From the NCBI GenBank assembly GCA_021324685.1, contig JAJPIQ010000082.1, positions 1 through 64,000 on the forward strand: 64,000 nucleotides of DNA. The letters are read 5' to 3'. This DNA comes from Bacteroidota bacterium. GTDB lineage: Bacteria > Bacteroidota > Ignavibacteria > Palsa-1295. Each line of letters starts with the position of its first letter. Position 1 is the first letter of the stretch. The notes below the pieces were generated by a model. The model did not search any database and was not told the DNA's origin. It saw only the letters and a program-made list of their open reading frames with translations. Position numbers and translations under genes: made by a program. This document shows positions 10,584 through 33,315 of this stretch, piece after piece.

Positions 10584-12655
10584 TTAACCCGTTCCAACGC
10601 AAGCGTTCGCGTTCCGTCAGGCGTCACGATCACGCATTGGTATGTTCCGGCCGGTGTATGGGTGCCGTCCCAGACGGCTTGATGGGATCCGGAGGAAAAG
10701 TTACCGTTTGCGACCGCCGCAACTTCATGCCCGAGCACATCATAAATCGTTACGGTTGCATGACCAGCCGTCGATAGCGAAAACGGGATGGTCGTTTCGC
10801 GCGTAAACGGATTCGGATAATTACCATCGATTACGGTATGATCGGCAAGCCGCGAAACGCCAGAAAGGTCGACCATTTCCGAAAGCGGCCGCGACCAGAC
10901 GCCGCTGCCTCCCGTTCCGGCATACAGCGTCGTTCCTTGTATGGCAAGCGCTTCCACGCTTGTTCCGTCGGTGAGTCCGTCGTTCGCGGTATTCCATGTT
11001 CTCCCAAGATCTTGAGAGACATACACTCCAGCGTCCGTTGCTGCGAATATATCGGGACCGATGGTCAGCAGGCCATAGATCGCATTGCTCGCTAACGCGC
11101 CGGTTTTCCAGGTCGCGCCATCATTCGTCGAGATTAAGATCCCGTTCGATTCGGTCCCCAAAAATAGCACCCCATCCGTGCCTGCAACCTCGGAGAAGTA
11201 ATTATTATAAGCCGCGCCGGACGGAGGACTGATATTGTTCCATGTCATTCCAGAATCGTTTGACGAATAGACCAGACCGGTTGCCGAGCTGCAATACATC
11301 GTATTACCGCTCGTAGCAAATGACGTAACGACGAGGTCGATCGCGAGAAGACCGCTGCTTTCATCGACCCACGTAGAGCCATCGTCCGACGAGACGAAGA
11401 TCCCGGCGCCGGTCCCTGCAAAGAGAAGGCCGTTTTGTTCATACAGGGCCGAAATGGTCGTCGAGCTATAACTCGTCGTGGGGTTGATCCATGTCACGCC
11501 GCTGTCCGGAGAAACCAGGATCTCCCCATACAAGCTTGCGGCGAAGACCGATCCGTCGTCGGGATTCGCTGCGATGGCCTGAAGGGAATTATTGTAATTG
11601 GAAGGCATTGCACTGCTTACGTCGGTCCATGTCGCGCCGCTGTCCTCGGTTACAAAAAGGTCGCTGTTGACACAATTCGCAAACAGACGCGGACCGAGCA
11701 CGGCAAAACCACTCACAGAGCTGATGGAAAGGCCGGTGTTACTTCCGGTCCAGGTGAAGCCCGCATCGCTCGAAAGAAAGATTCCTGCGCTTCGCGTCCC
11801 GGCAATAATGCTGGTTCCGACTGCGGTCATCGCCGTCACCGTTAAAGAACCGAGCGTTGCGTTCGGTCCGCTCCAGCTTTGGCCCGAATTCGTTGTGAAA
11901 TAAAGCCCGGAATAGGCACTGGAGTAGAGCGCAGAACCCGTTGAAAACAATGTTTGTACCGACATGCCTTCGAGCCCGGAACTCTCAGGTTCCCATGACG
12001 CCCCCGAGTCGGACGAGCGGTAAATGCCATCCTGGGCGGCCGCGAATATCGAAGCTCCCTGGACGGCCAGAGCATACACAGAGCCCAGTGGAGCATCCGT
12101 AAGAAGTGTCCATGTCGAGCCGCTATCTGCGGAGCGAAACAGGCCCCACTCGGAGCCTGCAAAAAATGTGGTGCCGATCGAAGAAAAACAATAGATCGTC
12201 GTATCGACCGGAAGGGTCGTCACGGGGGACCAGTTGACTCCTCGGTTCGTCGAGCGATAGACCCCACCGTAAAATCCGTCGGAAATAAAAAGCTGACGCC
12301 CCAGCGTGGCGATGACCGTAATATCCGAGGCGTTCGAAAGTCCGGTCCCGATCTGCCGCCAGCTTCGGCCTTTGTCCGTGGAGCGATAGACGCCGTTTGC
12401 TTTGGTGGCAAAGACGGCAGTATCGAGTACGGTGATCGACGTAATAGGAATTGTTCCCACCGCGGCCATGCTCGACGTCCAGGTTGCACCGCTATCCGTC
12501 GAGCGATAGACGCCGGCCGGCGTTCCGGCAAAAACGTCTCCGGCAAACGTGGCCAGGGAGGTAATCTGCCCGCCATACGGTCCGGCCGCCTGCTTCCATT
12601 GCGCCGAGGTGGAACTCGCGATCACGAGAGCGATAACACAAACGAGATATTTCAT
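10580..12655 (-). CDS. T9SS-secreted beta-propeller (YCF48/sialidase-like repeat) protein
   Basis: 691 residues with a signal peptide (LVCVIALVIASSTSA). About a dozen repeats carry the YRSTDSGATW / SSDxGxTW (Asp-box, BNR/YCF48-like) motif, e.g. VYRSTDSGATWTSS, VYRSTDKGRSWRQ, FVSSDDGSTWVDE, predicting one or two beta-propellers across residues 20-600. The last about 85 residues are a type A T9SS sorting domain: GNYPNPFTRETTIPFSLS, then VTIYDVLGHEVAAV and WDGTHTPAGTYQCVI. The protein is therefore expected to cross the outer membrane by T9SS and be attached or released. Asp-box repeats alone do not prove an enzyme; no sialidase active-site set was identified. Confidence 0.9.
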   Translation of the reverse strand: MKYLVCVIALVIASSTSAQWKQAAGPYGGQITSLATFAGDVFAGTPAGVYRSTDSGATWTSSMAAVGTIPITSITVLDTAVFATKANGVYRSTDKGRSWRQIGTGLSNASDITVIATLGRQLFISDGFYGGVYRSTNRGVNWSPVTTLPVDTTIYCFSSIGTTFFAGSEWGLFRSADSGSTWTLLTDAPLGSVYALAVQGASIFAAAQDGIYRSSDSGASWEPESSGLEGMSVQTLFSTGSALYSSAYSGLYFTTNSGQSWSGPNATLGSLTVTAMTAVGTSIIAGTRSAGIFLSSDAGFTWTGSNTGLSISSVSGFAVLGPRLFANCVNSDLFVTEDSGATWTDVSSAMPSNYNNSLQAIAANPDDGSVFAASLYGEILVSPDSGVTWINPTTSYSSTTISALYEQNGLLFAGTGAGIFVSSDDGSTWVDESSGLLAIDLVVTSFATSGNTMYCSSATGLVYSSNDSGMTWNNISPPSGAAYNNYFSEVAGTDGVLFLGTESNGILISTNDGATWKTGALASNAIYGLLTIGPDIFAATDAGVYVSQDLGRTWNTANDGLTDGTSVEALAIQGTTLYAGTGGSGVWSRPLSEMVDLSGVSRLADHTVIDGNYPNPFTRETTIPFSLSTAGHATVTIYDVLGHEVAAVANGNFSSGSHQAVWDGTHTPAGTYQCVIVTPDGTRTLALERVN

Positions 12656-16594: not shown

Positions 16595-17326
16595 ATGATC
16601 CGATCACAACGGGAACTCGCCGAAGTCAGTCGGCCTGGCGCAGAACGGCTCTCGCAGACCGAGAAGCTGCTGCTGCGTTATGAGACCAGCCGCGACTGGG
16701 TGATGAACAACCAGCGCGCGATGGCCGTGATCGCGGTCGTTCTTATCGCTATTGTTGGAGCCCTGTGGTGGTGGGCCGGCCAGCGACAGACCAATGCCGA
16801 ACACGCTTCGACGTATCTGTCCCGGACGATGGGATTTTATTTCAGCGACGATTACCGGCATGCCATCGATGGCGATCGCACCGAGCGTATGGCCGGCGAG
16901 CCGATTTACGGTCTCCGCTATATTGTGGACCAATATGGCTCCACTCCCGCCGGGAACCAGGCGGCGCTCATGCTCGGCAATTGTTACTATGCGCTCGGCA
17001 AATACGACAGTGCCGAGACCGCTTTCGAAAAAGCATCGAGCGATTATCCGATCGTGAAAGCTTCGATCGAAGCGGGACGTGCTGCTATTTTCGAGCATCG
17101 AGGTAACAAAATCGAAGCAGCGAAGTTGTTTGAAACAGCGGCAGGACGAGATAAGCAAAATCCGCTCGATGCGGACTATCTCCTAAGTGCCGCTCGCGAT
17201 TACGAAGGAGCAAAACAAAAGGACGACGCCGTCCGGCTTCTACGTGAGATCGCCGGAGACTATCCGAATACGCAGTTCGATGATGCCGCCAAGCGCGAAC
17301 TGCTGAAGATGGACGTAGAGCTTTGA
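16595..17326 (+). CDS. Single-pass membrane protein with TPR-like repeats (YfgM-like)
   Basis: 243 residues. A cytoplasmic N-terminus of about 40 residues precedes one hydrophobic segment (MAVIAVVLIAIVGALWWWAG, about 46-65). The remainder is helical, with tetratricopeptide-like pairs such as NQAALMLGNCYYALGKYDSAETAFEKA and DADYLLSAARDYEGAKQKDDAVRLLREI. The layout matches YfgM-type or Tol-Pal-associated tetratricopeptide proteins that sit at the inner membrane and hold periplasmic partners. The partner here is unknown. It stands between tRNA-Arg and the T9SS cargo block, so it could assist secretion, but that is inference from position only. Confidence 0.85.
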   Translation: MIRSQRELAEVSRPGAERLSQTEKLLLRYETSRDWVMNNQRAMAVIAVVLIAIVGALWWWAGQRQTNAEHASTYLSRTMGFYFSDDYRHAIDGDRTERMAGEPIYGLRYIVDQYGSTPAGNQAALMLGNCYYALGKYDSAETAFEKASSDYPIVKASIEAGRAAIFEHRGNKIEAAKLFETAAGRDKQNPLDADYLLSAARDYEGAKQKDDAVRLLREIAGDYPNTQFDDAAKRELLKMDVEL

Positions 17327-17499: not shown

Positions 17500-20400
17500 A
17501 TGTACCGTTACTTGACTGCTTTTATTGTGTTCATTGGCCTTGCGACGTTCGCGGGCCAGCTCCAGGCACAACGCCTGATTCCGATTTCGGGGTATCTCCC
17601 GGCGGGTCAGACGAAAGTGTTTCCTCCCCGCACTCCGCAGAACTCTGCGACCGATACGATCTTTGAGATCTCGGGCGATTACCATGTCGCCGGAACGCTC
17701 ATCGTTCAGGAGGGCGCCGAAGTTTGGTTTCTGCCGAACAGCCGTATTATCGATACGGCCGGCGGCAAGATCATCGCCAATGGTTGCGCCGGCTTAAACC
17801 GTCGGATCCTTTTTCGGGGAGCGGGCATCAATGCCAACTCGGTCGAATGGGGCCATTTTATCATTCTTCCAAATTCGGACTCGGCGTACTTCTCGAACGT
17901 CCGATTCACCAATTTCCGTAAACGCAATACGGTCGACGTAACGCTGCTCTACAGCCCGACGGCCGATCCGACGCACGCCGCCTTCAATGCCGCGATTAAT
18001 AATGCGATCAACGGTAATGGCGGTGTGATTTCGACGTTTTCTCAGAAGACATTCATCTATAATGCGATCGTCGACAGCTCGCAGACTTCGTTCCGCGGCG
18101 GCGCGTTCGCATTCCTCCAGGCGCCGGTCGGCTGGCCAGTGCCGGACGATGGCCGTCTCGCGCTCGCGAATCGGCAGGTCGCCAATCTTACAATCCGCGA
18201 CGTTCGCTGCTTCAATCAGGAAACGACCGGAGCGACAGATGTTCTGGCGCTCGGTGGCGCGATCTACATGGCCTCGAACTCCGCGACCTATAATTCGGCC
18301 GATTATGTAGTCGGTTACCTCGGCGGCAGCAACTTCCCCTGCGGTTCACCGGCTCTCGATGTCAACCTCTTCGAGCGTTGCACCGCCAACAATACGTTCG
18401 GCAACCTCGCGACTAATTTTGCCAAAGGCGGCGCGATCTATGTCGGTACGAACACCGGTCTCGTCCTCACGCAGAGCACGTTCAATAACGACTCGGCCAT
18501 CGAGACCGTCACGGCCCCGAACGGCGGGACGCCTGACGTCAACTCCTGGGGTGGTGCAATCGATGTGAGCGCATTCTCCGGAAGCCCGACCGAAGTTCCG
18601 ATCGGTTCCGGCAACTCACAGGTGCCGTATCCCCCGGGACCGTCCGATCGTCTGCCAGGCCTTACTATCTTAAAGACCGCTTTGTTCAACACCTGCGTTG
18701 CAGGCCGCGGCGGTGCGATCGCGCTCGAGTGGAATAACGCGAGCATTCCGGCTCCTCGTCTTAATATCGATGCCGAGCATTTCGCGGCTCCGAGTGGCGG
18801 TGGTGCCCTCGTGCGCGACTCTGGCCTTATCCAGTTCGTCAATAACGTCGCCTATCTTTATGGCGGCGCAATCTATTCGCCGAACCCGGTATTCATCAAA
18901 GGGTATCTTGCTCCGCAAAACTTCCCGTGGCCGGGCGGTGCGGACTCGGTTGAACTCCGCGTCCACTTTGCCAATAACCTTGCGGGTGTTGGCGGCGGCG
19001 GACTCTATCTCGATGGCAATGCCGGCGGCCAGCCGGATTTGATCGAGCGCCGTTCGGTCCATTTCCATGAAATGGTCAATCCGTTCGATACCCGTATTAA
19101 CCCGGCGGGCGGTGTCAACCGCGGTGCACTTTATGGTGCTGGCGTTATCGGAGGCGGTGCCGAGTATATTGGCATGCGCGATTCCGTCTTCGCCGTCGAA
19201 TACAACAGCGATACCGTCGTTGGCGGTAACGGCGGTGCCGTCGAAATTCGCGATGCGATCGCGGCCGGTAATGCGGTACCGAACAACCGATATTTTGTCG
19301 AAAACGAGTATAACCCCCAGAACGTGAGAGTTCCTCGCGATACGTTCGCGAGCGCGAGCATCTTCCCGTTCGACCCACGCGAACTGACCCGCTTCCTTAA
19401 TAACGCGGTTCTCCTCGGACCCGATTCGGCCGCTCTCTTTAATTACAATCCGGCGAATACCGGCTCGGCCCACGGCCGCGGCGGTGCGCTCTATGTAGAA
19501 ATTACGAGCGACCCCAATCAATTGATCGAACCGCTCGATTCTACCTTCTTAAGCCACGTGCGCATGGAAGGTAACTCGGCCTATTCTGGCTCCGCGGTGT
19601 GGTGCGACCGTTACGATTTCAAGTTCATGTCGAACCTGTGCCTGATCGCGAACAATCACGCGACCTCGCCCTCTTCCGCGAACATTGATCTCGATACGGC
19701 GGGCGCTGGTAAGGGTATTTCGAACCCCGGCGATCCGAATGCCGGCGCAACGATCTGGGCTGACTTCGAAGGTCCGCTCCCGTCGTATGAGTCTAACTCG
19801 CGCGGCGATGCGATCTATGATAACACGGCCCGTTACATCCTTCGTCTGCCGGTCTCGACGATCGTTGGCCGAAGCGGTGTCGACACGCTCCGCGGCGACT
19901 TCTGGGGCGAAACCGGACCGCAGATCATCACCCAGATCAATCCCCCGGTCGGCGTCGAACAAGCGACGTTCTTCATCGACTTTTACAAAGGCTGCTTCAC
20001 GAATATTTACGAGCCGAATAGCAATCCGCCGGTGCAATACCATCCGAACGCGATTGGAACGGTTCCCGATACCCTCCTCATGGAAGGCCGCGTCTACGAT
20101 CTCTTCGATCGCGGAACGGATATGAAAGTGGCCGATTACGAACTTCCGCGCCTCGCGCCGGCAGAAGCGTTCTCGCTTGGTCTTCCGAGCGATGTGGCCG
20201 CGCTCCATCGGTTCACGCGTAATTTCTACGATACGAATGCGACCTATGTGAACAAGATCGATCTTATGCAGACCGATTTCGTTGGACCGCACCCGATCGG
20301 ATACCCGCTCTTCCTGCAGGCCGACGTCGCTCTCGCGGATTCCAATCGCGATCCGTATGCGAAGAACTACACGGTCTTCATGGTCTTCAATCAGACCACG

Positions 20401-23400
20401 AACGAATTCGTCCGCGTGAACTTAAAAGAGATCAAGCAGGATGAAGGCGCGGGCGATGTTCAGCAGACCTATCGTGGCCGCCTCGACTTCGTGCCAGATT
20501 CTTCGGTGGCCGAGCGTCATCCGAACCTCCGCCAGCGCGCGCTCTATACCCTTTCGCTTCTTCGTCCCTCGACAATGACGTTCGACGAAGTCCAGCGCGC
20601 CTCCATGCTTGAGGATTCCGCCGCTCTCAACGGTCGTGAATATTCACTTGCGGCTGCGGATCTAGTTGCGGCTGGTGACTCGGTCTTTATGAATTGCGAG
20701 TCGACCGGTGTTCCGGCTAACTCGACCTGGTATGCTGGTGAAAAATACCATACGCTTCCCGTTCGTCCGGGCGATCGCATTCTTGTGATTAGCCGTACGC
20801 AGCTTTGGAAATACGGCGCGGCGTATGCCATCACGCATGGACTACAGTTCACGATCGGCGACGTATTGCCTCCGGCATTCGTGGCCGACATTCCGAACCT
20901 CCAGTCCGACACGTATAATCCGAATGTGCGGTTCGTCCATGAGGATGTGAACTATAACGCCAGCGATGCTGCGCACACGCTCTTCCGCGTGGCGGGATTC
21001 GATGCGAATAACTTCTACGATCCGCGATTCCTCTTTAATGCTGCGAACTATACGCAGCTTGCGTTCACCGTAACGCCGGATCTTCTGACGGGCGATGTCG
21101 TTCCAACCGGTTCTAGTTATGTGGCGAAAAATGCCGCTGACTCGGTCCGTGCGCATGTCCGCCTCAATCACTGGCTGCATGACAGCGTCATCTACAATCA
21201 GAACATCACCGGCTCGAATGGCTATGTGCTGCTCTATGGCCAGCCACACAATCCGGATGTCGTTCCGGGTGGCGAAGGTGTAACGGCAACGGTTACCAAT
21301 TTCCCGCCGAACTTTGCTTCTGAGAGTGGGCTGAGGGGCTCGTTCCCAGGAGTGCTTGGGGCCGACAGCCTTGGACTTAGCATGTGGGTCTACCCGCCGT
21401 TTATGAACTGCGCGCGGATCCCGGATTCGACCACGGCAATTCCGGATACGATCTGCATCCGCTCGACAAGCTCGACCTATCACTTCAAGATCGTCGTCAT
21501 GGATAGCCTTCCGCGATTCCTGCAGACGTCGCTTCCGAAGTGCGGTGCGATCCTGACGGACTCGCTACGCTATACGGTCGACCTGAATACCGACGACGAG
21601 CTCGAGGATTCGGTCGCTGCGGCAGAGACCCTGCCTGGCGCACGGGTCGCCGATTCTGGCAGCCGGTTCCCAGCATGGGACTTCCGTTATGGCCGTACGG
21701 CATATGACTTCCAGACACATCCTTCCTGGATGCTCGAGCCGCAGGGCGGCAATTATGTTCCGATCGACAGCACGGATCCGAACTTCAAGCTTCGTGGCAT
21801 TATCAACGTTCGCGTCGATTCTGCCTACGCGGTGAATAATCTTCTGACTCCGATTCCGCAGGTCAACGGCGAGCTCAACCTCGACACGATCGCGGCGGTC
21901 GAAGCGAACGACGGACATACCGGTAAGGCGCTCCAAAAGTGGGCGGTGCCGATCCTGTTCGTACCGACGATCCTGAACGACACGCTCCCGCGCGCTCGCG
22001 AAGGCGTTGAGTACAGCATGAACTTCCAGTTCCCGGATCGCATCAATCGGATCCTGATCCAGAACCTGAACCCGTCGCAGTACTTTACCTATAAGCTGCT
22101 CTATAAGGGCGATGTCGAATATCTCTATCGCGATATTCCGAATAAAGTAAATGGCGATGTGCCGCCGAAGATCGGTACTCCCGATACCGTTGTAGGCCAT
22201 ACGCCGGCATGGTTGCATATCGATCCGTATTCTGGTGTGCTTACCGGCGTACCGGGCGATACCGATGCTCCGCACGTCGATGGCATGGCTTGCGGTCCGG
22301 ACAGCGTAACGGTTGTTGTTACCGATGGACAGTGCGTTGCGACGTGGAAGACGTTCGCGCTCGATGTCGATTCGGTCAACCACATGCCGATGCTCTCCCG
22401 TGGACCGGCTGAGCCGTGCGTAACCAACGGTACTCAGTACTGCGACAGCGCATATGTTGTCGATCGCGATCTCATGCGTGACTCGTGCGGTAAAGAGACC
22501 CTTACGCTCAGTCTTATCAATATGGATCCGAGCTTCACGGTCACACCAAGTACGGTGAGCGGTCAGCTTTCGAACGATACCGTGCATGTCATGATCTGCG
22601 GTACGTTCAATGAGCCACAGACCTTCTTCCAGAACCCTGGACCGTATGCCGATACCGTTCGCCTCCAGGCGACGGATGCGGCCGGCAACAGCGATACGCT
22701 CGTCTATCCGGTCCACATCGGCGACAAGCCGCGTTTTGAGTGTGCGATCTACGTAATGAACGCGATCACACAGCTTCATCCGCTCCAGGATATCCAGAAA
22801 CTCTGCTTCGGTGCAGGTCAGTATGGGCACGATTCGCTCGACGTTCGCTACTGCGAATATGAAGTCGCGCCGCCGCCGCCCACGAGCGCCTTCGATGCAC
22901 GCTGGATCCTGCCGATCGGCGGAGCACTGGAAGGTACTACCGTCGATGTCCGTAGCGATGTCGTGACGTCGAACCAGTTCGTAACGTGGCAGGTGAAGTT
23001 CCAGCCCGGTAACGAATCCGGTGGCGCTGGCAGTTTGTATCCGATCGAAATTTGCTGGAACCGTTCCTGCCTGAACAGCTCGGCGCTTTCCGGTGTGTTC
23101 GCGACGGGTAACTTCTACCTGCGTAACTCGCAGAACCCGAACGAGTTCGACATCAACATGGCAAGCGGCCAGGCGCAGATCGATAATAGTCTATATACGC
23201 TGACGGCGATCGGTTCGGATTCGGAGTGCCTCCAGATCCGTGACCAGAGCGTTTCGAATGCGCTGATCGTCTTCGTGCCGGCTGGTTCGGGCGTCGGCGA
23301 AGGTGCGCCGAAACCGGAGTTCGCATTGCAGCCGAACTATCCGAACCCGTTTGCGGGTGCGACCACGCTCAACTTCTCGGTTGCTGAAGCTTCCAACGTT

Positions 23401-23604
23401 CGCATCGATATCTACGATGTGAAAGGAACGCTGGTGCGTACACTCGTCAACGAGAAACTCGATGCCGGTTCCTATCCGGTAACGTGGGATGGCACGGACA
23501 ACACCGGTGCGCAGGTCGCTTCCGGAACGTATGTAGCGCACATGACCGCGGGTAGCTTCCAGGCGTCAGTAAAAATGTCAGTCCAGCCGCAGGGAGCACA
23601 GTAA
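17500..23604 (+). CDS. Giant T9SS-secreted beta-helix (Pmp-like) surface protein
   Basis: 2034 residues from the ATG at 17500, chosen for the GGAGG at 17491-17495 and the signal peptide LTAFIVFIGLATFAGQLQAQ; the frame itself opens at 17356. Residues about 30-800 carry repeated GGAIY/GGALY and FxNN motifs (GGAIYMASNSAT, GGAIYVGTNTGL, GGGLYLDGNAGG), like the polymorphic-membrane-protein beta-helix. Around 1492-1600 is a putative Ig/cadherin-like (He_PIG-type) domain, WLHIDPYSGVLTGVPGD. Residues about 1747-1927 hold a Cys-containing module also found in the 27001 gene. The C-terminus from about 1941 is a T9SS sorting domain (LQPNYPNPF, IDIYDVKGTLVRTL). Likely a large surface or matrix protein. 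Confidence 0.92.
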   Translation: MYRYLTAFIVFIGLATFAGQLQAQRLIPISGYLPAGQTKVFPPRTPQNSATDTIFEISGDYHVAGTLIVQEGAEVWFLPNSRIIDTAGGKIIANGCAGLNRRILFRGAGINANSVEWGHFIILPNSDSAYFSNVRFTNFRKRNTVDVTLLYSPTADPTHAAFNAAINNAINGNGGVISTFSQKTFIYNAIVDSSQTSFRGGAFAFLQAPVGWPVPDDGRLALANRQVANLTIRDVRCFNQETTGATDVLALGGAIYMASNSATYNSADYVVGYLGGSNFPCGSPALDVNLFERCTANNTFGNLATNFAKGGAIYVGTNTGLVLTQSTFNNDSAIETVTAPNGGTPDVNSWGGAIDVSAFSGSPTEVPIGSGNSQVPYPPGPSDRLPGLTILKTALFNTCVAGRGGAIALEWNNASIPAPRLNIDAEHFAAPSGGGALVRDSGLIQFVNNVAYLYGGAIYSPNPVFIKGYLAPQNFPWPGGADSVELRVHFANNLAGVGGGGLYLDGNAGGQPDLIERRSVHFHEMVNPFDTRINPAGGVNRGALYGAGVIGGGAEYIGMRDSVFAVEYNSDTVVGGNGGAVEIRDAIAAGNAVPNNRYFVENEYNPQNVRVPRDTFASASIFPFDPRELTRFLNNAVLLGPDSAALFNYNPANTGSAHGRGGALYVEITSDPNQLIEPLDSTFLSHVRMEGNSAYSGSAVWCDRYDFKFMSNLCLIANNHATSPSSANIDLDTAGAGKGISNPGDPNAGATIWADFEGPLPSYESNSRGDAIYDNTARYILRLPVSTIVGRSGVDTLRGDFWGETGPQIITQINPPVGVEQATFFIDFYKGCFTNIYEPNSNPPVQYHPNAIGTVPDTLLMEGRVYDLFDRGTDMKVADYELPRLAPAEAFSLGLPSDVAALHRFTRNFYDTNATYVNKIDLMQTDFVGPHPIGYPLFLQADVALADSNRDPYAKNYTVFMVFNQTTNEFVRVNLKEIKQDEGAGDVQQTYRGRLDFVPDSSVAERHPNLRQRALYTLSLLRPSTMTFDEVQRASMLEDSAALNGREYSLAAADLVAAGDSVFMNCESTGVPANSTWYAGEKYHTLPVRPGDRILVISRTQLWKYGAAYAITHGLQFTIGDVLPPAFVADIPNLQSDTYNPNVRFVHEDVNYNASDAAHTLFRVAGFDANNFYDPRFLFNAANYTQLAFTVTPDLLTGDVVPTGSSYVAKNAADSVRAHVRLNHWLHDSVIYNQNITGSNGYVLLYGQPHNPDVVPGGEGVTATVTNFPPNFASESGLRGSFPGVLGADSLGLSMWVYPPFMNCARIPDSTTAIPDTICIRSTSSTYHFKIVVMDSLPRFLQTSLPKCGAILTDSLRYTVDLNTDDELEDSVAAAETLPGARVADSGSRFPAWDFRYGRTAYDFQTHPSWMLEPQGGNYVPIDSTDPNFKLRGIINVRVDSAYAVNNLLTPIPQVNGELNLDTIAAVEANDGHTGKALQKWAVPILFVPTILNDTLPRAREGVEYSMNFQFPDRINRILIQNLNPSQYFTYKLLYKGDVEYLYRDIPNKVNGDVPPKIGTPDTVVGHTPAWLHIDPYSGVLTGVPGDTDAPHVDGMACGPDSVTVVVTDGQCVATWKTFALDVDSVNHMPMLSRGPAEPCVTNGTQYCDSAYVVDRDLMRDSCGKETLTLSLINMDPSFTVTPSTVSGQLSNDTVHVMICGTFNEPQTFFQNPGPYADTVRLQATDAAGNSDTLVYPVHIGDKPRFECAIYVMNAITQLHPLQDIQKLCFGAGQYGHDSLDVRYCEYEVAPPPPTSAFDARWILPIGGALEGTTVDVRSDVVTSNQFVTWQVKFQPGNESGGAGSLYPIEICWNRSCLNSSALSGVFATGNFYLRNSQNPNEFDINMASGQAQIDNSLYTLTAIGSDSECLQIRDQSVSNALIVFVPAGSGVGEGAPKPEFALQPNYPNPFAGATTLNFSVAEASNVRIDIYDVKGTLVRTLVNEKLDAGSYPVTWDGTDNTGAQVASGTYVAHMTAGSFQASVKMSVQPQGAQ

Positions 23605-23718: not shown

Positions 23719-25632
23719 ATGAAACTTTATCGACGGTTCTTTATTGCGATGGCGGTCGTTGCGATCGGTGCGATGGGCCTCGCAACGAACGCGCACGCAC
23801 AGGCCTCGGGCGTTCAGCCGCTTTGGGCAAACTATGCGGTCTCGTACGTCAACGAGTTCTATAACCCGTTGGCTGGCGGGACGCTGCTTTCGGCCGACCA
23901 ATTCTTCAACTCTTCGGGCACCATCGATCACGACGATGGCACCGCGGCAAATATTCCGACCGGCTTTACGTTCGATTACAACGGCAATGCATCGAACTCG
24001 GTCAATATTAATATCAATGGATGGGTGTCGATTCGCTCGCTCAACCCATCGGCCAATTTCAATCAGATCCCGGTCGTAACCTGGAATAACAACTTCCTCT
24101 TTTCGTCCGAATTGCCGAATAATACGGTAGCACCATATTGGGGCGACCATTATTATCGGTTCCTCGAGCCGGGATATCATCCTTCACGCATTTCGTATTC
24201 GACGACCACGGTGCCCGATCCGAACCCGAACGCAAAGCCGTTCTCGTTCATCCACACCTTCACGGTCGAGTGGCGCGACCTGAATGTTAACGACAAGACG
24301 AATCCGAATTCCATCGCTTCGTTCCAGCTTATCATCCGCGAAAATCCGATGGCGAACGATCAGTCCGCCCCGGACGATCGCGCGACCATCGAATACGCAT
24401 ACGGCCCGATCGGCAGTGGTAATGTCCAAACGGCCGGCGATGCAGTCGGTGCCGAAGATTCTGTCGGATTCACGCACATCAATGCGATGTACACGACCGC
24501 ACAGTTCAATGGTGATTCCACTCGGTTGAACACTTCGACCCGCACGACCATATGGCCGCCTTCGGGTCTGCCGGGCCGTGCAATCTATCTCATCCCGCAG
24601 GGCCGCGCGTTCCTTTCGCAGTGGGGCGATGGCGATGCCGATCTTTCCCAGATTTATAGCTCGGACGTTAATGTCCGCACGCATCAGAACCGCTTTGTCA
24701 CGCTTAACGATGCGGAACTTGTTCTTACCGCCGCGGCGACGGACGTTCCACTCGATTCGGTCGAAGGCAGAAATGCGTTCCACGGTGATGCTAACCATAA
24801 CGGCCGGGTTTATAACCCAACCTATGGCGCCTACTTCTACTATACAACGCCATACGATGCCGCGTACATCCTGATGTACTTAGCGGGCAAACTCGCGGTG
24901 CTTCCGTGGCCACTTCCGCTTCCGGTTCCCGGATACAAGGCGGCCGATATTCATACGACCGACGTCTCGGGTATCGTTGCGGACGCTTCGAACGTTCAGG
25001 TAACGGGTAATACGGTTCTCGTGCCGATCACGGTACGCGGTACGGTCAATGGCGCACTTTCGATCCAGATGGATCTTAAGGGCCTCGAGAATTCCGGTCT
25101 CCAGTTCGTTGGAACCCGTTCCCCGCAGGGAACGCTCATGGCCTCGAACGGCTCTACCGGGCGCGTCGTGCTTGCCACGAGCGGCAACTACTCCGATGGT
25201 GCGACCGTCGGCTACATCGAACTGCGCCAGACCTCCGGAACGAATGCGGAGTTCGATCTTGCGAATGTAAAAGTGAACGATGCCGATCTTCCCTCCTCGC
25301 ATGTCGCGCTCAAGCTTACGAGTGCGGATGGTAGCAGCGCGGGAAGTTCGCTCGAACAAAATATGCCGAATCCGTTTGTCGTTAACGCCGGTGGCGAAAC
25401 GACGATCGGCTTTAATCTGGCCGCGCCGGAGGATGTGACGCTTCGCGTTTATGACATGCTCGGCCATGAAGTTCGTACCCTGGTCAGTGGCGAAGGTCGC
25501 GCCGCCGGACATAACACCACCGAGTGGGATGGCCGCGATGCGAGTGGCAACGTTGTTGCCAGCGGACTTTATTACTATCAGCTTGTGACCCCAGACTTCA
25601 CGCAGACCGTGAAGATGCAGGTCATTCGCTGA
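23719..25632 (+). CDS. T9SS-secreted protein with dockerin-like and cohesin-like modules
   Basis: 637 residues; AAGGAG at 23703-23708 supports the ATG at 23719. The signal peptide ends NAHAQ. The N-terminal 270 residues include a beta-rich domain with DDGTAANIPTGFTFDYNG. At about 303-400 are two degenerate dockerin-type repeats: a FVTLNDAELVL helix, then the calcium-loop-like GDANHNGRV followed by YDAAYILMYLAGKL. Residues about 411-535 resemble a cohesin-like beta-sandwich (VLVPITVRGTVNGALSIQMD). The C-terminus is a T9SS domain (LEQNMPNPF, LRVYDMLGHEVRTLVSGEG). Having both module types suggests non-covalent assembly with neighbours such as the 25688 product; this is untested inference. Confidence 0.9.
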   Translation: MKLYRRFFIAMAVVAIGAMGLATNAHAQASGVQPLWANYAVSYVNEFYNPLAGGTLLSADQFFNSSGTIDHDDGTAANIPTGFTFDYNGNASNSVNININGWVSIRSLNPSANFNQIPVVTWNNNFLFSSELPNNTVAPYWGDHYYRFLEPGYHPSRISYSTTTVPDPNPNAKPFSFIHTFTVEWRDLNVNDKTNPNSIASFQLIIRENPMANDQSAPDDRATIEYAYGPIGSGNVQTAGDAVGAEDSVGFTHINAMYTTAQFNGDSTRLNTSTRTTIWPPSGLPGRAIYLIPQGRAFLSQWGDGDADLSQIYSSDVNVRTHQNRFVTLNDAELVLTAAATDVPLDSVEGRNAFHGDANHNGRVYNPTYGAYFYYTTPYDAAYILMYLAGKLAVLPWPLPLPVPGYKAADIHTTDVSGIVADASNVQVTGNTVLVPITVRGTVNGALSIQMDLKGLENSGLQFVGTRSPQGTLMASNGSTGRVVLATSGNYSDGATVGYIELRQTSGTNAEFDLANVKVNDADLPSSHVALKLTSADGSSAGSSLEQNMPNPFVVNAGGETTIGFNLAAPEDVTLRVYDMLGHEVRTLVSGEGRAAGHNTTEWDGRDASGNVVASGLYYYQLVTPDFTQTVKMQVIR

Positions 25633-25687: not shown

Positions 25688-26887
25688 ATGGCTATGAAAA
25701 AGCTGCTTCTCTTAGTGGCTTTCCAGTTCGTCGCGTGTTTGGCGGCACAAGCGCAAAGCCTGTTCGAGGTTCGCTTCGATACGGTCACGGCTAAAGCCGG
25801 AGATACCGTTACAGTTTATGCGCGGTACCGTTTTACACCTTCCGGACCACACGACATCATGTCCTACACGGCGCAATTCGACTTCGATACGACCGAAGTC
25901 CATCTGCTCGCGTATGTATTCGATGGAACGGCGACTCCGGCTGCAGATACGAACCTTGCTGGCACCAGCCACCGCGGTATCAGCGCTTTCGGAACATCCG
26001 AGATCGACTTAAGCGATTCGCTTTTATTTGGGATCCGTTTTCGAGTCGATCGGGCGCTCGCCGATACGGCCTTTGTGCGATGGGATACAACCGTTCCCAT
26101 GTTCGCATCGGGAACCGGCGTCGATTCGGTCCATTTCCAGAATGGATGGGTCCGAACGATTTCGACCTCGGGACATGTGGTGCTTGGCACTCCGGCCGTG
26201 GTCGTGCGAGGGTTTACACTCGGCTACAGCCCTGATTCTGTCGCGTTCGAGCTGCCGGTACTTGCTTCGGGCCTTGATAGCGCGAATATTCGCACGGCAG
26301 TCATAAGCTTTGTTTACGACAGCACGGCACTTTCGATCCAGGGCTTTAATGCGACTCCGGTGAAGGACGTAAATGTCGTTGGGTTTTCGAGCGTAGCGCT
26401 TCCCGGCGGCCTTCGACGCGAGAGCGTTTCGATCGCTTCTTCCGGAAGCGGACCGATTCCCGGTAACGACACGCTCCTGCGAATTTCTTTCGTCGGACTC
26501 GTGGGGCTCGATACGAACTGCACCGCGCTCGAGGAAGTCTCGCTTCGGCCGTCGAATCCTGGCGGGCTTATCGGCAATACTGATTACACGGCGAATCCGA
26601 TCTGCCTCGAAGGAGAACGACCGAGCCGCGTTTCGAATGCGAAGCAGGGAAATCCGATTTCACTTTTTCCGAACCCGGCCGTAAGCGAAGTAACATTCGT
26701 TTTTCCGGCTGGTACCGAAGGACAAAAAATGCTGGAAGTTTACGATGCGCTTGGACGTATGGTCTGGAGCGGCGCGATAGCAGGAGCGAGGTGGACGATT
26801 CCCGTCGGAATACCGGCTGGTTCGTATACCGCAGAAGTGAACGCGAGTGGAACGATCTTCAGAACGAATCTTACGATCGCTCCATAG
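25688..26887 (+). CDS. T9SS-secreted protein with two cohesin-like domains
   Basis: 399 residues (ATG at 25688, or 25694 two codons later). Signal peptide KKLLLLVAFQFVACLAAQAQ. Two beta-sandwich segments follow, about 22-150 (FDTVTAKAGDTVTVYARYRF ...) and 165-300 (GYSPDSVAFELPV ...), each with the pattern of cohesin-like domains: a V/A-G-D-T-V start and an AQFDFDTTEVHLL or ISFVYDSTALSIQG strand. The end is a T9SS sorting domain (ISLFPNPAVSEVTF, LEVYDALGRMVW). It is a candidate partner for the dockerin-like module of the preceding gene. The last 97 bp overlap a non-native N-terminal extension of the next frame. Confidence 0.85.
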   Translation: MAMKKLLLLVAFQFVACLAAQAQSLFEVRFDTVTAKAGDTVTVYARYRFTPSGPHDIMSYTAQFDFDTTEVHLLAYVFDGTATPAADTNLAGTSHRGISAFGTSEIDLSDSLLFGIRFRVDRALADTAFVRWDTTVPMFASGTGVDSVHFQNGWVRTISTSGHVVLGTPAVVVRGFTLGYSPDSVAFELPVLASGLDSANIRTAVISFVYDSTALSIQGFNATPVKDVNVVGFSSVALPGGLRRESVSIASSGSGPIPGNDTLLRISFVGLVGLDTNCTALEEVSLRPSNPGGLIGNTDYTANPICLEGERPSRVSNAKQGNPISLFPNPAVSEVTFVFPAGTEGQKMLEVYDALGRMVWSGAIAGARWTIPVGIPAGSYTAEVNASGTIFRTNLTIAP

Positions 26888-27000: not shown

Positions 27001-29937
27001 ATGCGCAAGCTATACGGCTCATGGGCGGCGGTTCTCGCCGTTCTGGTGCTCGTGTGCGGAATCACGCCAGTCCGCAGTCAGACGTTGAAGGCGTATCCCA
27101 CTCTCTCGCTCCGGAATTTCAAATGTCCGGGTCTGCAGGGTGACACGATCGAGCGTGTCCCGGCTCCGGGTCCGGGTGGAGATCGGTACTTTCTGGTACC
27201 GGTGTATTGCTATAATGAAGTCGATACGAACTTCAACCCGAACAACAATGGCACCATCCAGGGCCAGCACCTCGAGCCGATCCGGAGCTTTAATTTCCAG
27301 TTCTGGTACGTGACGCAGGCGATGGTGCTCGATACGGGCCACGGTTCGCCGATCGTCCTTGCTACGCCAACCGATACGGCGATGGCGAAGACGTTCTTCG
27401 TCCAGTTCAGCGATCAATCGGCAAACAATCCGAATAATCCGTTCCAGCACGTGATCCGGATTTCGGGCGCCGGCTCGGTCCCGCTTCCGATCAACTCCTC
27501 GACCTATTGCCTATGCAAGAACGCGGTCCTTATGTGGCTCCGCTTCAAGGTCGTTCCGAGCAACGTAACGAGCGGTTTGCTGCACCTGGACTCCGCGACC
27601 TTTAACGATCATAGCGGCGATTTCTTTGTACAATCTCCAACCGGTATTCCCTCCTACACCGAAGGTAACTTTGGTGGCGGCTTGCCGAGCCCGAGTGGCG
27701 GCGGCGATGTCGGTTGCCCGTACAACGGACCGTTCGATCGCGGTTATGGCGAAGTCGATGTCACGGCTCAGCCGACCTTCCTCCTGCGCCCATTCTCTCA
27801 GATCTATGAGATCAATGGCCCAGGCAGTGCAAACGACTCGCTCTTAGTCGATCTCGTGTACGATCCGACGGTCTCGTCCGGTTCGGTCTCGCGTAATCTT
27901 CAGTTGAGTGACGCCGTCGGCAATACCGTGATCCAGAATATTACGATCTCTTCCGACCAACAGTGGCTGCAGATCAGTGCGACGGGCCCATCCGGTGGCT
28001 CCGACTCGATTACTTCGCCCAGCGGGTTCCCTGATATTAACTACGCCACGAGCTTCGGTTCTTCGGTGCAGAATGTTTTCTTAAACGTTCCTAATCCGTC
28101 CAGCCTTGCGCCGGGTGTTTACTATGCAACGGTAACGTTCACCAGCTACGGCACTTCGAACAGCCCGCTTACGCTGCATGTACGCTTCGTTCGCCTTGCA
28201 TCGCCGAACGAACCGCAGCCCGGTGGGTCCGGAACAGGTATTCGCCTGAACATCACGAATAGCTGCGTACCGACCTGCACCAATATCGTGACCTTTGGAA
28301 CAGGCCCCGGAGCGACGTCCGGTATTGACGTCCTCTATGGCGAACAACGCGTGACCGTCGAGGACACGCTCGGCGCCGATACGAACGGTACGTGTATCGC
28401 TTATTTCGTTCCGCTCGATAACACCGTCGATACGGCGTTCCAAAACCCCGATTTCATCGGTATGACCCGCGATATTCGTTCCGATAAAACGGATACGACG
28501 CTTATCTACCAGGTTGATTTCAATCCGGGTAACGTGAACTGCTATCCGGTGAAAGTCTGCGTCGATCCGCACGACTTCCCGAATGGCGCTCGTATCGTCA
28601 TGAAGTTTACACTCAACGGTTCCGAGCAAGGCATTGACTTGCGTAATGCAACAGTTGACGTCAACGGTATGGAGTGCGTCACGATCACGGACCACCGGAT
28701 CAACCACTTCTATATCGAGTATACGCCGGCTACGATCGCGAATCTTGGGACGTTCCTGAAGCTCAATAGCTGGACTCTCATTTCGCTCCCGGTTGTTCCG
28801 CCGAATCCGAATGCGACTGTTATTTTCCCTCATGCGGCAACGCCTCCGTTCCAGTACACGTCGCAGAGCGGTTGGGTGCAGCCGCCGGGCAATAACCTTG
28901 AGTTCGGCCGCGGCTATATGATCCGCTATGGCGACTTTATCGGACCCGATATCACGGTTGCCGGGATTAAGTCTTATTCGATCACCAATGTTGCGGTCTC
29001 GCAAGGTTGGAACTCTATTGGCGGCACGAGCGGCACCGGTACATTCAATGGTTCGGATGGTACGGTCATGCTCTTCACGCCTCCTGCGAATGGCGCTCCA
29101 GTGCCGATCGCTCAGACGGACGCACTCTGGGAGTTCACGCCGCAACGCGGGTACGATCAGACCAATTTCTTCACACCGGGCGAAGGATATTTCATCAAAG
29201 TCAGTGCAACTGGGTTTTATAACCTGAATACACCGGCACCAAAAGTGGGAGTAACGCATGCCTCGCAGAACCCGGCCGGTAAGATCGCCGAGATCGGAAA
29301 TTTGCAAGGCCAGCTTGCGCACGTCCTCGTCCGCGATGCTGCGGATAACGGCCAGACGCTTTACTTCGGCCATGCGACGACGTCGATGCCGGAAGCCAGC
29401 TTCGAAATGCCGGTGCTCTTCCACGATTTCGATGCTCGCTTTGAAGCCAACAGCGGCATGATGAGCTATAATCACTCGTCGTATACCGTCGATCTCCATG
29501 CGGCGAACTTCCCGCTCACGATGACCTTCACGAACCTTTCGGGTACCGTCGAAGTCACCGATATGAACGGTAAAGTTCTCGGCACGGCGACGAATAACGG
29601 CATCGTGACGATCTCGGATGCGACCGTTAAGCAGGTCCGCATTGCCGAGAAAGAAGACAATGTCGGTGCGAATGTACTCGGCTACGCGATTACCGCTACC
29701 GAGAACCCATTCCACGAGACTTCGACGATCCAGTACACGGTTCCGCAGGAATCGGTCGTTACGCTCGTCGTCTATAATGCGCTCGGCCAGGTCGTCTCGA
29801 CGCTCGTGAGCGGCACGGTCGGAGCAGGACAGCATGAGGCGCTCTTCGATGGCACGAACCTGCCGTCAGGCACTTACTACTGCACGATGAAGGCTGGCAA
29901 TTTTGTCCAGACCCAGTCGCTCAGCCTCGAACGGTAA
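27001..29937 (+). CDS. T9SS-secreted multidomain surface protein
   Basis: 978 residues. I chose the ATG at 27001 because AAGGAG precedes it by about 10 bp and a signal peptide follows (AAVLAVLVLVCGITPVRSQ); the frame opens 70 codons earlier inside the previous gene. Residues about 300-400 look BACON-like (SSDQQWLQIS ... PGVYYATVTFTS). About 413-579 is a Cys-containing module shared with the 17500 protein (FGTGPGATSGIDVLYGE, RDIRSDKTD, VDFNPGN, YPVKVC, MECVTITD). Next comes a region common in T9SS cargo (NSWTLISLPVVPP, FGRGYMIRYG). A T9SS domain ends it (ATENPFHETSTIQY, LVVYNALGQVVSTLVSG). Possible promoter upstream: TTTG at 26935-26938 and TA at 26959. Confidence 0.9.
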   Translation: MRKLYGSWAAVLAVLVLVCGITPVRSQTLKAYPTLSLRNFKCPGLQGDTIERVPAPGPGGDRYFLVPVYCYNEVDTNFNPNNNGTIQGQHLEPIRSFNFQFWYVTQAMVLDTGHGSPIVLATPTDTAMAKTFFVQFSDQSANNPNNPFQHVIRISGAGSVPLPINSSTYCLCKNAVLMWLRFKVVPSNVTSGLLHLDSATFNDHSGDFFVQSPTGIPSYTEGNFGGGLPSPSGGGDVGCPYNGPFDRGYGEVDVTAQPTFLLRPFSQIYEINGPGSANDSLLVDLVYDPTVSSGSVSRNLQLSDAVGNTVIQNITISSDQQWLQISATGPSGGSDSITSPSGFPDINYATSFGSSVQNVFLNVPNPSSLAPGVYYATVTFTSYGTSNSPLTLHVRFVRLASPNEPQPGGSGTGIRLNITNSCVPTCTNIVTFGTGPGATSGIDVLYGEQRVTVEDTLGADTNGTCIAYFVPLDNTVDTAFQNPDFIGMTRDIRSDKTDTTLIYQVDFNPGNVNCYPVKVCVDPHDFPNGARIVMKFTLNGSEQGIDLRNATVDVNGMECVTITDHRINHFYIEYTPATIANLGTFLKLNSWTLISLPVVPPNPNATVIFPHAATPPFQYTSQSGWVQPPGNNLEFGRGYMIRYGDFIGPDITVAGIKSYSITNVAVSQGWNSIGGTSGTGTFNGSDGTVMLFTPPANGAPVPIAQTDALWEFTPQRGYDQTNFFTPGEGYFIKVSATGFYNLNTPAPKVGVTHASQNPAGKIAEIGNLQGQLAHVLVRDAADNGQTLYFGHATTSMPEASFEMPVLFHDFDARFEANSGMMSYNHSSYTVDLHAANFPLTMTFTNLSGTVEVTDMNGKVLGTATNNGIVTISDATVKQVRIAEKEDNVGANVLGYAITATENPFHETSTIQYTVPQESVVTLVVYNALGQVVSTLVSGTVGAGQHEALFDGTNLPSGTYYCTMKAGNFVQTQSLSLER

Positions 29938-29973: not shown

Positions 29974-30036
29974 GCCGGAAGCATGAGCGATCATGCGAGT
30001 GGTCTTGTAACAAACGGCCACGACAGGAGTTATTCG

Positions 30037-30080
30037 GAGCGGGAGTTGCTTATACCAAGCAGCTCCCGCTCTTTGGTTTT
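30037..30080 (+). terminator. Intrinsic terminator closing the 27001 transcript
   Basis: A 15-bp stem with one wobble pairs 30037-30051 with 30057-30071 (GAGCGGGAG on one side, CTCCCGCTC on the other) over a 5-nt loop. TTTGGTTTTT follows. The strong stem and T-rich tail make it the clearest terminator in the surface-protein block. Confidence 0.85.
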
Positions 30081-30105
30081 TAACTCAACAATTTTTTGTG
30101 AAGCG

Positions 30106-30978
30106 ATGAAGCTTTTTAATGCAATGAAGCGGTATCCGATCCTTGGTGTAGTGGTTGTGTGCGGTGTCGCGGTTTTTGTGCCTCGGACGCGAGCACAGTC
30201 GCTGATACCGGAGTTCCGGTTGGACCTGCACTACCACGACGCCGGAAACGGCGGGAACGGTTACCCTGTCGCGTTCGGCTACGATGCCCGAGCGACCGAT
30301 GGGATCGATACAGCCTTCGGCGAAGCGTATTATCCGCCCGTAGTGGGACCGGGGGGCTTTTATCTGGCGTTCCAAATATCGGACACGGAAGCATCGCTCA
30401 TCGATATCATGTACAAGCCGGGGACCGACACCTTTACGATCCAATACCCACTCGTCCTTTCAGCATTCGAATACCCTGCTACGCTCTCCTGGGACCGATA
30501 CCAAATTCCTTCCCAGATCAAGGCGATTACGATCGCACCGCCCGGCAATCATACAAGATTGATGGCGGATATGACCAAGCAGGACTCCGTTGTCATTACG
30601 ACCGACCTCAGCAGTCCCGATTATGCGTTGAACTGGATGCCCGCGATCATCACGGTGTATTATAATTTTGCCCCGGCAGCGGTGGAGAACGATTTTACGG
30701 CCGACGCAGGATTAATCTCGAAGGCATCGGTCTATCCAAATCCAATGGTCTCGAACAGCGTGCTCGATCTTACAATGAACGATGCAGCGCTCGTTACGAT
30801 AGAGGCGTATGATGTCACGGGCCGCGAGCTAATGTATATCTCGAGGAATGTCGGTCCCGGAGATGCGGTGATGGGCTTAAACACGCTTCCTAAGTCGAGT
30901 GGCGCAGTGCTCTTACGAATCGATGCCAGTTCCTCGTCCCGGCATGAGACGCGTACCGTCATGGCCATGCGGGAATAA
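30106..30978 (+). CDS. Secreted protein with T9SS sorting domain
   Basis: 290 residues from the ATG at 30106 (the frame opens at 29983 inside the terminator region, so the internal start is preferred; 30124 is an alternative). Signal peptide YPILGVVVVCGVAVFVPRTRAQ. The first about 190 residues form a beta-rich region with no recognised family. The C-terminus is a T9SS-like sorting domain (KASVYPNPMVSNSVLDL, VTIEAYDVTGRELMYIS). Its start follows the terminator by only about 25 bp, leaving little room for a separate promoter. Its stop (TAA 30976-30978) abuts the stop of the convergent next gene with no gap. Confidence 0.82.
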   Translation: MKLFNAMKRYPILGVVVVCGVAVFVPRTRAQSLIPEFRLDLHYHDAGNGGNGYPVAFGYDARATDGIDTAFGEAYYPPVVGPGGFYLAFQISDTEASLIDIMYKPGTDTFTIQYPLVLSAFEYPATLSWDRYQIPSQIKAITIAPPGNHTRLMADMTKQDSVVITTDLSSPDYALNWMPAIITVYYNFAPAAVENDFTADAGLISKASVYPNPMVSNSVLDLTMNDAALVTIEAYDVTGRELMYISRNVGPGDAVMGLNTLPKSSGAVLLRIDASSSSRHETRTVMAMRE

Positions 30979-33315
30979 TTACTCGCCGATCACGATCTTT
31001 CCGGACCAGACCTGATCGCCGCTTACGAGGTGATAAAAATATATATCTCTCGCAAGAAGCGAGGTCGGAATAACCTGATTATTTCCATTGACGAAAGCAT
31101 GGAGGACCGGCGCACCTAAAATATTCAGGAGGGTGAAGCGGGCAGTGGGATTCAAGTCGGAGTGGAGAGCAATGCGAATACCGTCCGATTCGGGCAAAAT
31201 ACTTAAAGTGTTGTTCTTCAATGCCATCACACCATCCGTAGCATATCCCTTTCCCTGAAGCTGTACCGTTCGGGTTCCCGCGGAAGTCGAACGGACATGA
31301 AACGTCCCGGAATACGTCATGCTTGCTACGGGCGAGAACGTAATATGGAGCGTGTCCGACGTGAATGAGTTAAGCGTGATGGGTAGCGCATCCATGCCGT
31401 CTCTAAACGCAGGATTATCGCTCCAGATGGAGTCGAACGTGATGGGCCAGGCCGAGGAAGTGTCGTTCAGAACGATCGAGGCAATAGTTTTACTGGTGCC
31501 CACCTGAACGGTATCAAAGTTCGTTGCGGACATTGTAAAACCCGGTTTCAGTGTGGTGCTGGGAACAGAATAGGAAATTTCTCCCACACTTCGATTCCCC
31601 GTCATGTCGTACGCCGTAAAACGCGCGAATGCAGCTTTGCTGGCATCTGCCAGGCAGGCCGTGAGCGTCGTCGAACTCGTGCTATCGCCAGGAATGAAAG
31701 TGGGGTCACCGGAAATCGTGAGGTTCACAAGGGAGTCGATCTCGATATAGGAAATCCCCGAGCCAGCGTCCGAAATCGTAACTTTGTCGCAGCCATTTGT
31801 TTCATTCCAGGAAAGGACCGGCGGGATTTGGTCGTTTCCGGCGGCTGCGAGAAGTCCCGGTGAAGCAGGATACGTAATGCTCTGGCCGGTATGCGTTGCA
31901 TACGCGTAGGCATAAGCGCCGACCGGCAGATCGGATTCGATTCGGTGACTGCCGGGCTGGACGGCACCTATAGGATTGCGATAGACCGTGTATTCTCCGG
32001 AGATCGGTTTCTTTGTCCAGTTCCCAATGCTTGCACCGTCGAAGGTGACCGACTTCGCATTCGCATTCACGATAATGTTTACGTACGGAGCGAATTGGGT
32101 AGTGAACGATGCATTATACAGTGGGACTTGAATGGTCGCTGAGTTCCCAAAGAGTTCTGCCGGTGTAAGTACCGCCATGGCCGGCGAGCCCGACGTCCCC
32201 GTCTCCTGCGATGGATAATCGGCCCCGTTCATATATTGCGTAAGCAGGAAGGGTGCCGAGCTGTACCACTTTGCCGGACCCGAAATGTCGGAAGCGGAGC
32301 TTAAATCGAATGCATGGTCCAGCGTGCAGAACGCATGATCGCCGGTTTGATCGACGATATTGATCGTCTGCCCCGCCTGACTGCCGATGACGACGAATGT
32401 GCTCGCATCGTGATCGGTAATGCCTGGTGCCTGAAAAAATGGCACTGAATAATAGGTTCTTCCCCAGGAGCGGATCGGGGGGACCATATCGGCGACAAAA
32501 TCGTATTTCGCGTAGGTCGCAGGGATTTGTGCGCGCTGGCAGCCGCCGATCACCGCGATCGGGTAATTCGAGTGCAGGACCGTCCCGGTCACATCGTAAT
32601 CGGTGGGATTTTGCGGGATGACCGTCTTATATTGCACAGACTGGCCCTTATTCAGCGATTCGGTAAATGTTTGTCCTTTGGGATGCGCGACGGCGCTCGG
32701 GTTCGGCGCACTTTCAGTTTCTTCGCGAAGGTCGGCGCTCGGTGTGATCGTCACGAGGGTACTGTCGTGCTCCGCCACGATCGTAAACAGGGAGGGATAA
32801 TCGAATTCGTCCGAGCTTGAGCCATAAAAATAGGCTTCGTACCCGGCCACGATATAATCCCTGCCAAGCTGAAAATCGGGCAGTAAATGGATTCCATCTC
32901 CGGCGCTATCGGCGGTCTGGATTTCTGTGAGCATCAGGTCGAGATCCGCGGAGTCGGACCATACATGATAACCTTTGTCCTCCACAATGCCACTTGTTTT
33001 GATGACCTGCGTAAGCGGCAGTGCATAGGCTGCCGTTTTGCCGGCCTGTACCGAAACCGACGCATCGAAGTTCGCGACATGAATATGGGCAATCGTGTTT
33101 TTGGGGGACGTAATATTTAGCTCGTAATAGGTCGCTGCCGTGCTCTGGCCGAAGAGTTCGGGTGGCGCAAACCAAACGCTGCGGCCCATGACCGCTGAAG
33201 AATCGTGCGGAAAGTAAAAAGCCGTGTCATGGAATAATGACTGAGCGGCTGCACCAGATGTAAACATAGCAAGGAAGGTGAGCACCACGAGAGAACGGGC
33301 ACGCTGTGGGATCAT
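30979..33315 (-). CDS. T9SS-secreted protein with IgGFc-binding-type domain
   Basis: 778 residues; signal peptide LVVLTFLAMFTSGAAAQ. Residues about 25-490 match the layout of the IgGFc-binding N-terminal domain family found in mucin-like and bacterial surface proteins: VWFAPPELFG, FVADMVPPIRSWGRTYYSVP, DASTFVVIGSQAGQTI, PVGAYAYAYATHTG. A beta-sandwich with DSIWSDNPAF and TLHITFSPVASMTYSGTF follows, resembling an ASPM/SPD-2/Hydin-type (choice-of-anchor D) repeat. The final about 75 residues are a divergent T9SS sorting domain (ARFTLLNILGAPVLHAF, ARDIYFYHLVSGDQVWSGK). Bacterial members are adhesion-associated; Fc binding is not implied. Confidence 0.85.
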   Translation of the reverse strand: MIPQRARSLVVLTFLAMFTSGAAAQSLFHDTAFYFPHDSSAVMGRSVWFAPPELFGQSTAATYYELNITSPKNTIAHIHVANFDASVSVQAGKTAAYALPLTQVIKTSGIVEDKGYHVWSDSADLDLMLTEIQTADSAGDGIHLLPDFQLGRDYIVAGYEAYFYGSSSDEFDYPSLFTIVAEHDSTLVTITPSADLREETESAPNPSAVAHPKGQTFTESLNKGQSVQYKTVIPQNPTDYDVTGTVLHSNYPIAVIGGCQRAQIPATYAKYDFVADMVPPIRSWGRTYYSVPFFQAPGITDHDASTFVVIGSQAGQTINIVDQTGDHAFCTLDHAFDLSSASDISGPAKWYSSAPFLLTQYMNGADYPSQETGTSGSPAMAVLTPAELFGNSATIQVPLYNASFTTQFAPYVNIIVNANAKSVTFDGASIGNWTKKPISGEYTVYRNPIGAVQPGSHRIESDLPVGAYAYAYATHTGQSITYPASPGLLAAAGNDQIPPVLSWNETNGCDKVTISDAGSGISYIEIDSLVNLTISGDPTFIPGDSTSSTTLTACLADASKAAFARFTAYDMTGNRSVGEISYSVPSTTLKPGFTMSATNFDTVQVGTSKTIASIVLNDTSSAWPITFDSIWSDNPAFRDGMDALPITLNSFTSDTLHITFSPVASMTYSGTFHVRSTSAGTRTVQLQGKGYATDGVMALKNNTLSILPESDGIRIALHSDLNPTARFTLLNILGAPVLHAFVNGNNQVIPTSLLARDIYFYHLVSGDQVWSGKIVIGE

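Follow-up and report, generated by a model that had tools for sequence, protein, structure and literature searches.

Three neighbouring genes of a Bacteroidota genome share a domain, here termed M, that is well supported as an undescribed, predicted all-beta domain of T9SS-exported proteins. The genes lie in a 64,000-nucleotide stretch of DNA, referred to as the window (positions 1 to 64,000 of contig JAJPIQ010000082.1, assembly GCA_021324685.1; its genome is termed G000). Copy A of M is located in the 17500 gene, copy B in the 27001 gene and copy C in the 29983 gene (Table 1). M very probably represents a new domain family. Accessory C-terminal beta domains of T9SS cargo are a known kind of domain, and the M family is absent from the libraries and literature searched. 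The fold of M is possibly new too, as judged from predicted models compared with BFVD and with the best 50 matches in the PDB.

The original prediction described a segment shared by two genes, at 22741–23281 (residues about 1748–1927 of the 17500 gene) and at 28240–28737 inside the 27001 gene, and both locations are correct. All of its ordered landmarks are found; these are, in copies A and B respectively, FGAG/FGTG, VRSD/DIRSD, FQPGN/FNPGN, YPIEIC/YPVKVC, IDNSLYT/IDLRNAT, ECLQIRD/ECVTITD and FVPA/YTPA. The placement agrees as well, with copy A ending ∼40 bases before the sorting-domain match and copy B located mid-protein. Pairwise BLASTP aligns the two segments over 174 columns with 21% identity and an E value of 5e-7. 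The Smith–Waterman score is 84, and none of 500 shuffles scored as high (mean 29.8, sd 4.5, maximum 49). Separate profiles, built from 22 orthologues of the giant gene and 28 of the middle gene, align with 99.6% probability and an E value of 4e-24, the latter being for one comparison. BLASTP, shuffles and independent profiles together indicate that copies A and B are of common descent rather than similar by chance. Both of the copies first noticed are real, but the count of two was too low: copy C and a shortened fourth copy, mini-M, had been missed.

Table 1. Genes of the conserved block and domains within them (window coordinates).
Feature	Coordinates	Strand	Evidence
TPR protein, first gene of block	16595..17326	+	Pfam TPR matches
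Giant gene A, 2034 aa: putative signal peptide, beta-helix-looking repeats, Ig-like part, M, sorting domain	17500..23604	+	
M module copy A	22708..23298	+	BLASTP, AF2 model, family profile, profile-profile match
Gene A T9SS sorting domain	23338..23574	+	PF18962 E 1.5e-6
Gene D, 637 aa, T9SS cargo, weak Nidogen-like match, no M found	23719..25632	+	
Gene E, 399 aa, T9SS cargo, cohesin-like domain, no M found	25688..26887	+	
Gene B, 978 aa, T9SS cargo; C-terminal part M - GWN pair - mini-M - sorting domain	27001..29937	+	
M module copy B	28219..28740	+	BLASTP, family profile, AF2 model, profile-profile match
GWN pair, two units GWN/SWT...GYxIK	28741..29253	+	Common to protease-carrier tails
Mini-M, shortened fourth copy, directly before gene B sorting domain	29299..29661	+	hhalign to M
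Gene B T9SS sorting domain	29704..29913	+	PF18962 E 8.5e-6
Gene C, 331 aa: putative signal peptide, M, sorting domain	29983..30978	+	
M module copy C	30181..30672	+	Own-genome E 4.7e-38 (family profile with copy C itself among its rows); clade support 99/96

Copy C was found by an iterated profile over loci of relatives. A C-class profile built without A and B matches 14 of 22 A proteins and 6 of 21 B proteins at E<1e-3; the reverse searches, with the A profile or the B profile, each detect only 1 of 18 C proteins at the same threshold. All three full window copies match the M profile with the landmarks G35, D45, E50, FDxR/DIR and YPxxxxW. M is ∼140–190 residues in length and mini-M ∼115. By hhalign, mini-M aligns to M at 98.8% with an E value of 1.1e-16, and in the own genome the sole match of the mini-M profile is the window copy (E 8.4e-37). 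At the level of single sequences, Smith–Waterman comparison against shuffles is not significant for the pairs A–C, A–mini and C–mini, is weak for B–mini (42/500) and is near the edge for B–C (2/500). Thus, the homologies of copy C and mini-M depend on profiles. The GWN pair is a further widespread segment, for which no Pfam name was noticed. A GWN-pair profile made from carriers outside the block matches B proteins with E values of 1e-12 to 1e-35, and the reverse search matches too.

None of the 92 M copies has a convincing match in Pfam or NCBIfam, and a PDB profile search gave no convincing match to M, be it with single copies or with profiles as queries; the matches seen were scattered and to single copies, with best E values of 0.043 (Pfam) and 0.11 (PDB). 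The model of copy A, made with 92 sequences, has a pLDDT of 94 and a pTM of 0.90 and displays 12 strands and little helix. That of copy B, made with the 28 B-type rows only, has a pLDDT of 80. Secondary structure compared along the alignment, with coordinates not superposed, gives 56 strand positions shared by the A and B models vs 29.7 expected. Foldseek searches of the PDB with both models gave nothing at E<=0.001 among the best 50 matches by E-value, and TM-scores among the matches listed are at most 0.32 for copy A and 0.33 for copy B. Nothing at E<=0.001 was found in BFVD with the copy A model. A weak viral fold match of copy A in this database, the unnamed entry I1ZBD4, has an E value of 0.07, a probability of 0.72 and a TM-score of 0.42 by query. 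No description of the M module was found in the open-access literature, to which the search was confined. The earlier statement that the segment matches no known family is therefore borne out across 92 copies in Pfam and NCBIfam, and in the PDB by both profile and fold. Two findings had been named that would speak against a new module, i.e., unrelated folds of the two segments or a match to an Ig-like family. The predicted order of strands is the same in copies A and B, and no match to a known Ig-like family was obtained.

Several known domains invite comparison. In the gingipain RgpB, an Ig-like domain precedes the sorting domain. Compared by description, it resembles M in being the last domain before the sorting domain, whereas M is longer, has a conserved D..E..PP..FDxR loop and has no convincing Ig-like match in Pfam or the PDB. 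The T9SS sorting domain (PF18962, TIGR04183, CHU_C), like M, is a beta domain of the C-terminal end, is present in the same proteins and follows the same export route. CTDs are described as a compact 7-strand Ig-like sandwich (PMC11285876). Relative to CTDs so described, M differs in being a separate domain in front of them and in its larger size (140–190 residues, 12 predicted strands), and no profile match to PF18962, TIGR04183 or CHU_C was found among the 92 copies. FlgD_ig (PF13860) matches the same proteins, but over the sorting-domain region (residues 1958–2017 of gene A) and not over M. Toastrack (DUF4097, PF13349) has weak matches in 3 of 31 mini-M copies, the best with an E value of 1e-4; the window mini-M scores 14.8 bits, below the cut-off of 22.9, and full-length M copies have no match. 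Cohesin (PF00963) matches a domain of the neighbouring gene E and does not match M.

With the two-sequence profile of the first search, M was found in 32 of 100 relatives. Of 296 genomes sampled from the phylum, the 92-row profile finds it in 69, some with at least 12 copies; 24 matches are found in the Ignavibacteriales genome to which locus L032 belongs. Of 24 M carriers outside the block, 22 have the sorting domain PF18962. Among the other domains in these proteins are peptidases (gingipain-type C25, subtilase S8, trypsin-like and M43), fibronectin type III and a lectin-like domain. M is one homologous family that is mobile between cargo types and is almost always found with a T9SS sorting domain. 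The C-terminal cassette of gene B, M - GWN pair - mini-M - sorting domain, also occurs in several of the protease carriers. One genome, G078, has at least 12 M copies (loci L033–L039, L045, L046, L051, L071 and L072), and second copies of several of its proteins are near-identical, which suggests a recent spread of the tail cassette. The original description of a structural module common to T9SS surface proteins of the phylum is supported; that these form surface polymers would be conjecture.

In A, B and C the sorting domain follows an M-type domain, and one might ask if M is part of the export signal, i.e., a second recognition domain for the T9SS machine. This seems most improbable. The PorU model matches all 100 of the relatives, vs the 32 with M in the first search, and most cargo of the own genome is without M. 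PorU of the own genome itself scores 677 bits, compared with a cut-off of 420. Since the PorU model matches every relative and M was found in about a third, the reading of M as core secretion machinery was rejected.

The three M genes of the window belong to a conserved block. Among loci with covered flanks, its gene order, TPR - giant A - D - E - B - C, recurs in at least six family groups within the class (f1, f4, f7, f14, f15 and f19; the stretch of L061, in f7, begins after the TPR place). Immediately before the giant gene, TPR orthologues are present in nearly all of the loci that cover this flank, 20 in all. Distant loci always have an open frame of 366–506 codons at the place of gene E, and homology to E is clear in some only. 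In a tree of 92 copies, B copies form a single group (100/100), C copies form another (99/96), and A adjoins B. The separate orthologous groups of A, B and C copies, together with the conservation of the block, show them to be old paralogues that have been inherited together. TIGR04183 (cut-off 23) gives 26.4 bits for A, 38.4 for B and 21.8, just under the cut-off, for C. The N-termini of A, B and C, read by eye from the translations, are hydrophobic and end in ...A/S-Q. In each of the three proteins, no other domain stands between the sorting domain and an M-type domain, which in B is mini-M. Gene E matches PF00963 with an E value of 4.4e-7 and 30.6 bits vs a cut-off of 24.1, and TIGR04183 with 31.6 bits. 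A cohesin–dockerin reading of the block was considered and rejected, as no dockerin was found anywhere in the own genome.

The chances appear about even that M acts as an anchor-proximal stalk or docking module of T9SS cargo. P. gingivalis cleaves the sorting domain of type A cargo and attaches anionic LPS (for example PMC8545088). If this genus cleaves the sorting domain as P. gingivalis does, M would be anchor-proximal in the mature protein; after export and removal of the sorting domain it would form the part nearest the cell-surface anchor. M might then serve as a stable stalk and docking domain presenting the N-terminal part, which would be a beta-helix, a cohesin-like domain or, in other genomes, a protease. 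It would probably also keep the A, B and C proteins attached to one another at the cell surface. Docking is argued for mainly by the own genome, where searches with the M and mini-M profiles find M only in the three neighbouring window genes, although this 3.5 Mb genome has more than 110 stretches above the T9SS sorting-domain cut-off in a search limited to 150 scored stretches. Such restriction to linked genes suggests that the A, B and C proteins act jointly. The co-location could, however, stem from in-place duplication and not from a joint complex. A stalk or docking role is also weakened by the position of M, which does not always adjoin the sorting domain: in G078, several full copies stop 190 residues short of the C-terminus and another domain intervenes, and copy B is mid-protein, mini-M being the domain before the sorting domain there.

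By weighted conservation, the most conserved positions of M are G35, D45, E50, the DIR and FDxR motifs, W117 and M151. D45 (91%) and E50 (97%) are the most conserved acidic residues; both belong to a loop of 25 residues, for which the prediction is of high confidence. To place a metal or ligand site in this loop would be a guess. The loop bears on whether M acts as a passive spacer, serving as Ig-like filler to hold the working part off the surface. The predicted all-beta nature of M, its modularity and its repetition in tandem cassettes would suit a spacer; its loop polar residues are among the most conserved of the family, beyond what a spacer needs, and the own genome has M in just three adjacent proteins among many cargo. 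A passive spacer is thus unlikely. Cysteines do not characterize the family. The several cysteines first noted are present in the window copies, but 30 copies outside the cluster have 0–2, mostly none, which rules out a family-wide trait. Several of the landmarks first described, the cysteines and PGN among them, are confined to this lineage and do not define the family.

The main alternative to a stalk or docking module is a carbohydrate-binding module (CBM) that ties exported proteins to a polysaccharide, either of the substrate or of the cell's own surface. Fusion of M to exported enzymes, in beta-rich tails, fits carbohydrate binding about as well as it fits a stalk or docking role, and the acidic loop of D45 and E50 could bind sugar or metal. 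Melioribacter enzymes with a CBM usually have a Por sorting domain too (PMC3534657), a pairing that also favours this reading. On the other hand, M has no Pfam CBM match, none of the fold matches listed links it significantly to a solved CBM, the enzymes named in M carriers are mostly proteases, and the copy C protein is almost only M. Carbohydrate binding is possible, but less likely than a stalk or docking role.

A more far-reaching version of the docking proposal is that M is a new, self-recognising beta fold, by which A, B and C would dock into one conserved surface complex of the six-gene block, and that the docking tail has spread to secreted proteases. This is doubtful and quite speculative. 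If correct, the phylum would have a scaffold system that works like cohesin–dockerin and yet is distinct from it. T9SS cargo determines surface activities, and most of the protein outside the enzyme and sorting domains is unannotated. About a quarter of the sampled genomes contain M, whose profile is sharp and whose model is confident, and no library has an entry for it. An M family would annotate in one step the tails of numerous exported proteases and giant proteins. The six-gene surface block is conserved, and its products are open to assembly tests.

Two further T9SS genes of the window are notable, both on the minus strand. One, at 30979–33315, adjoins the block and encodes cargo with an IgGFc-binding domain (PF17517, E 5e-48); relatives of this gene are present beside the block in several close relatives. 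The other, at 10580–12655, encodes a T9SS protein with sortilin/BNR-type beta-propeller repeats.
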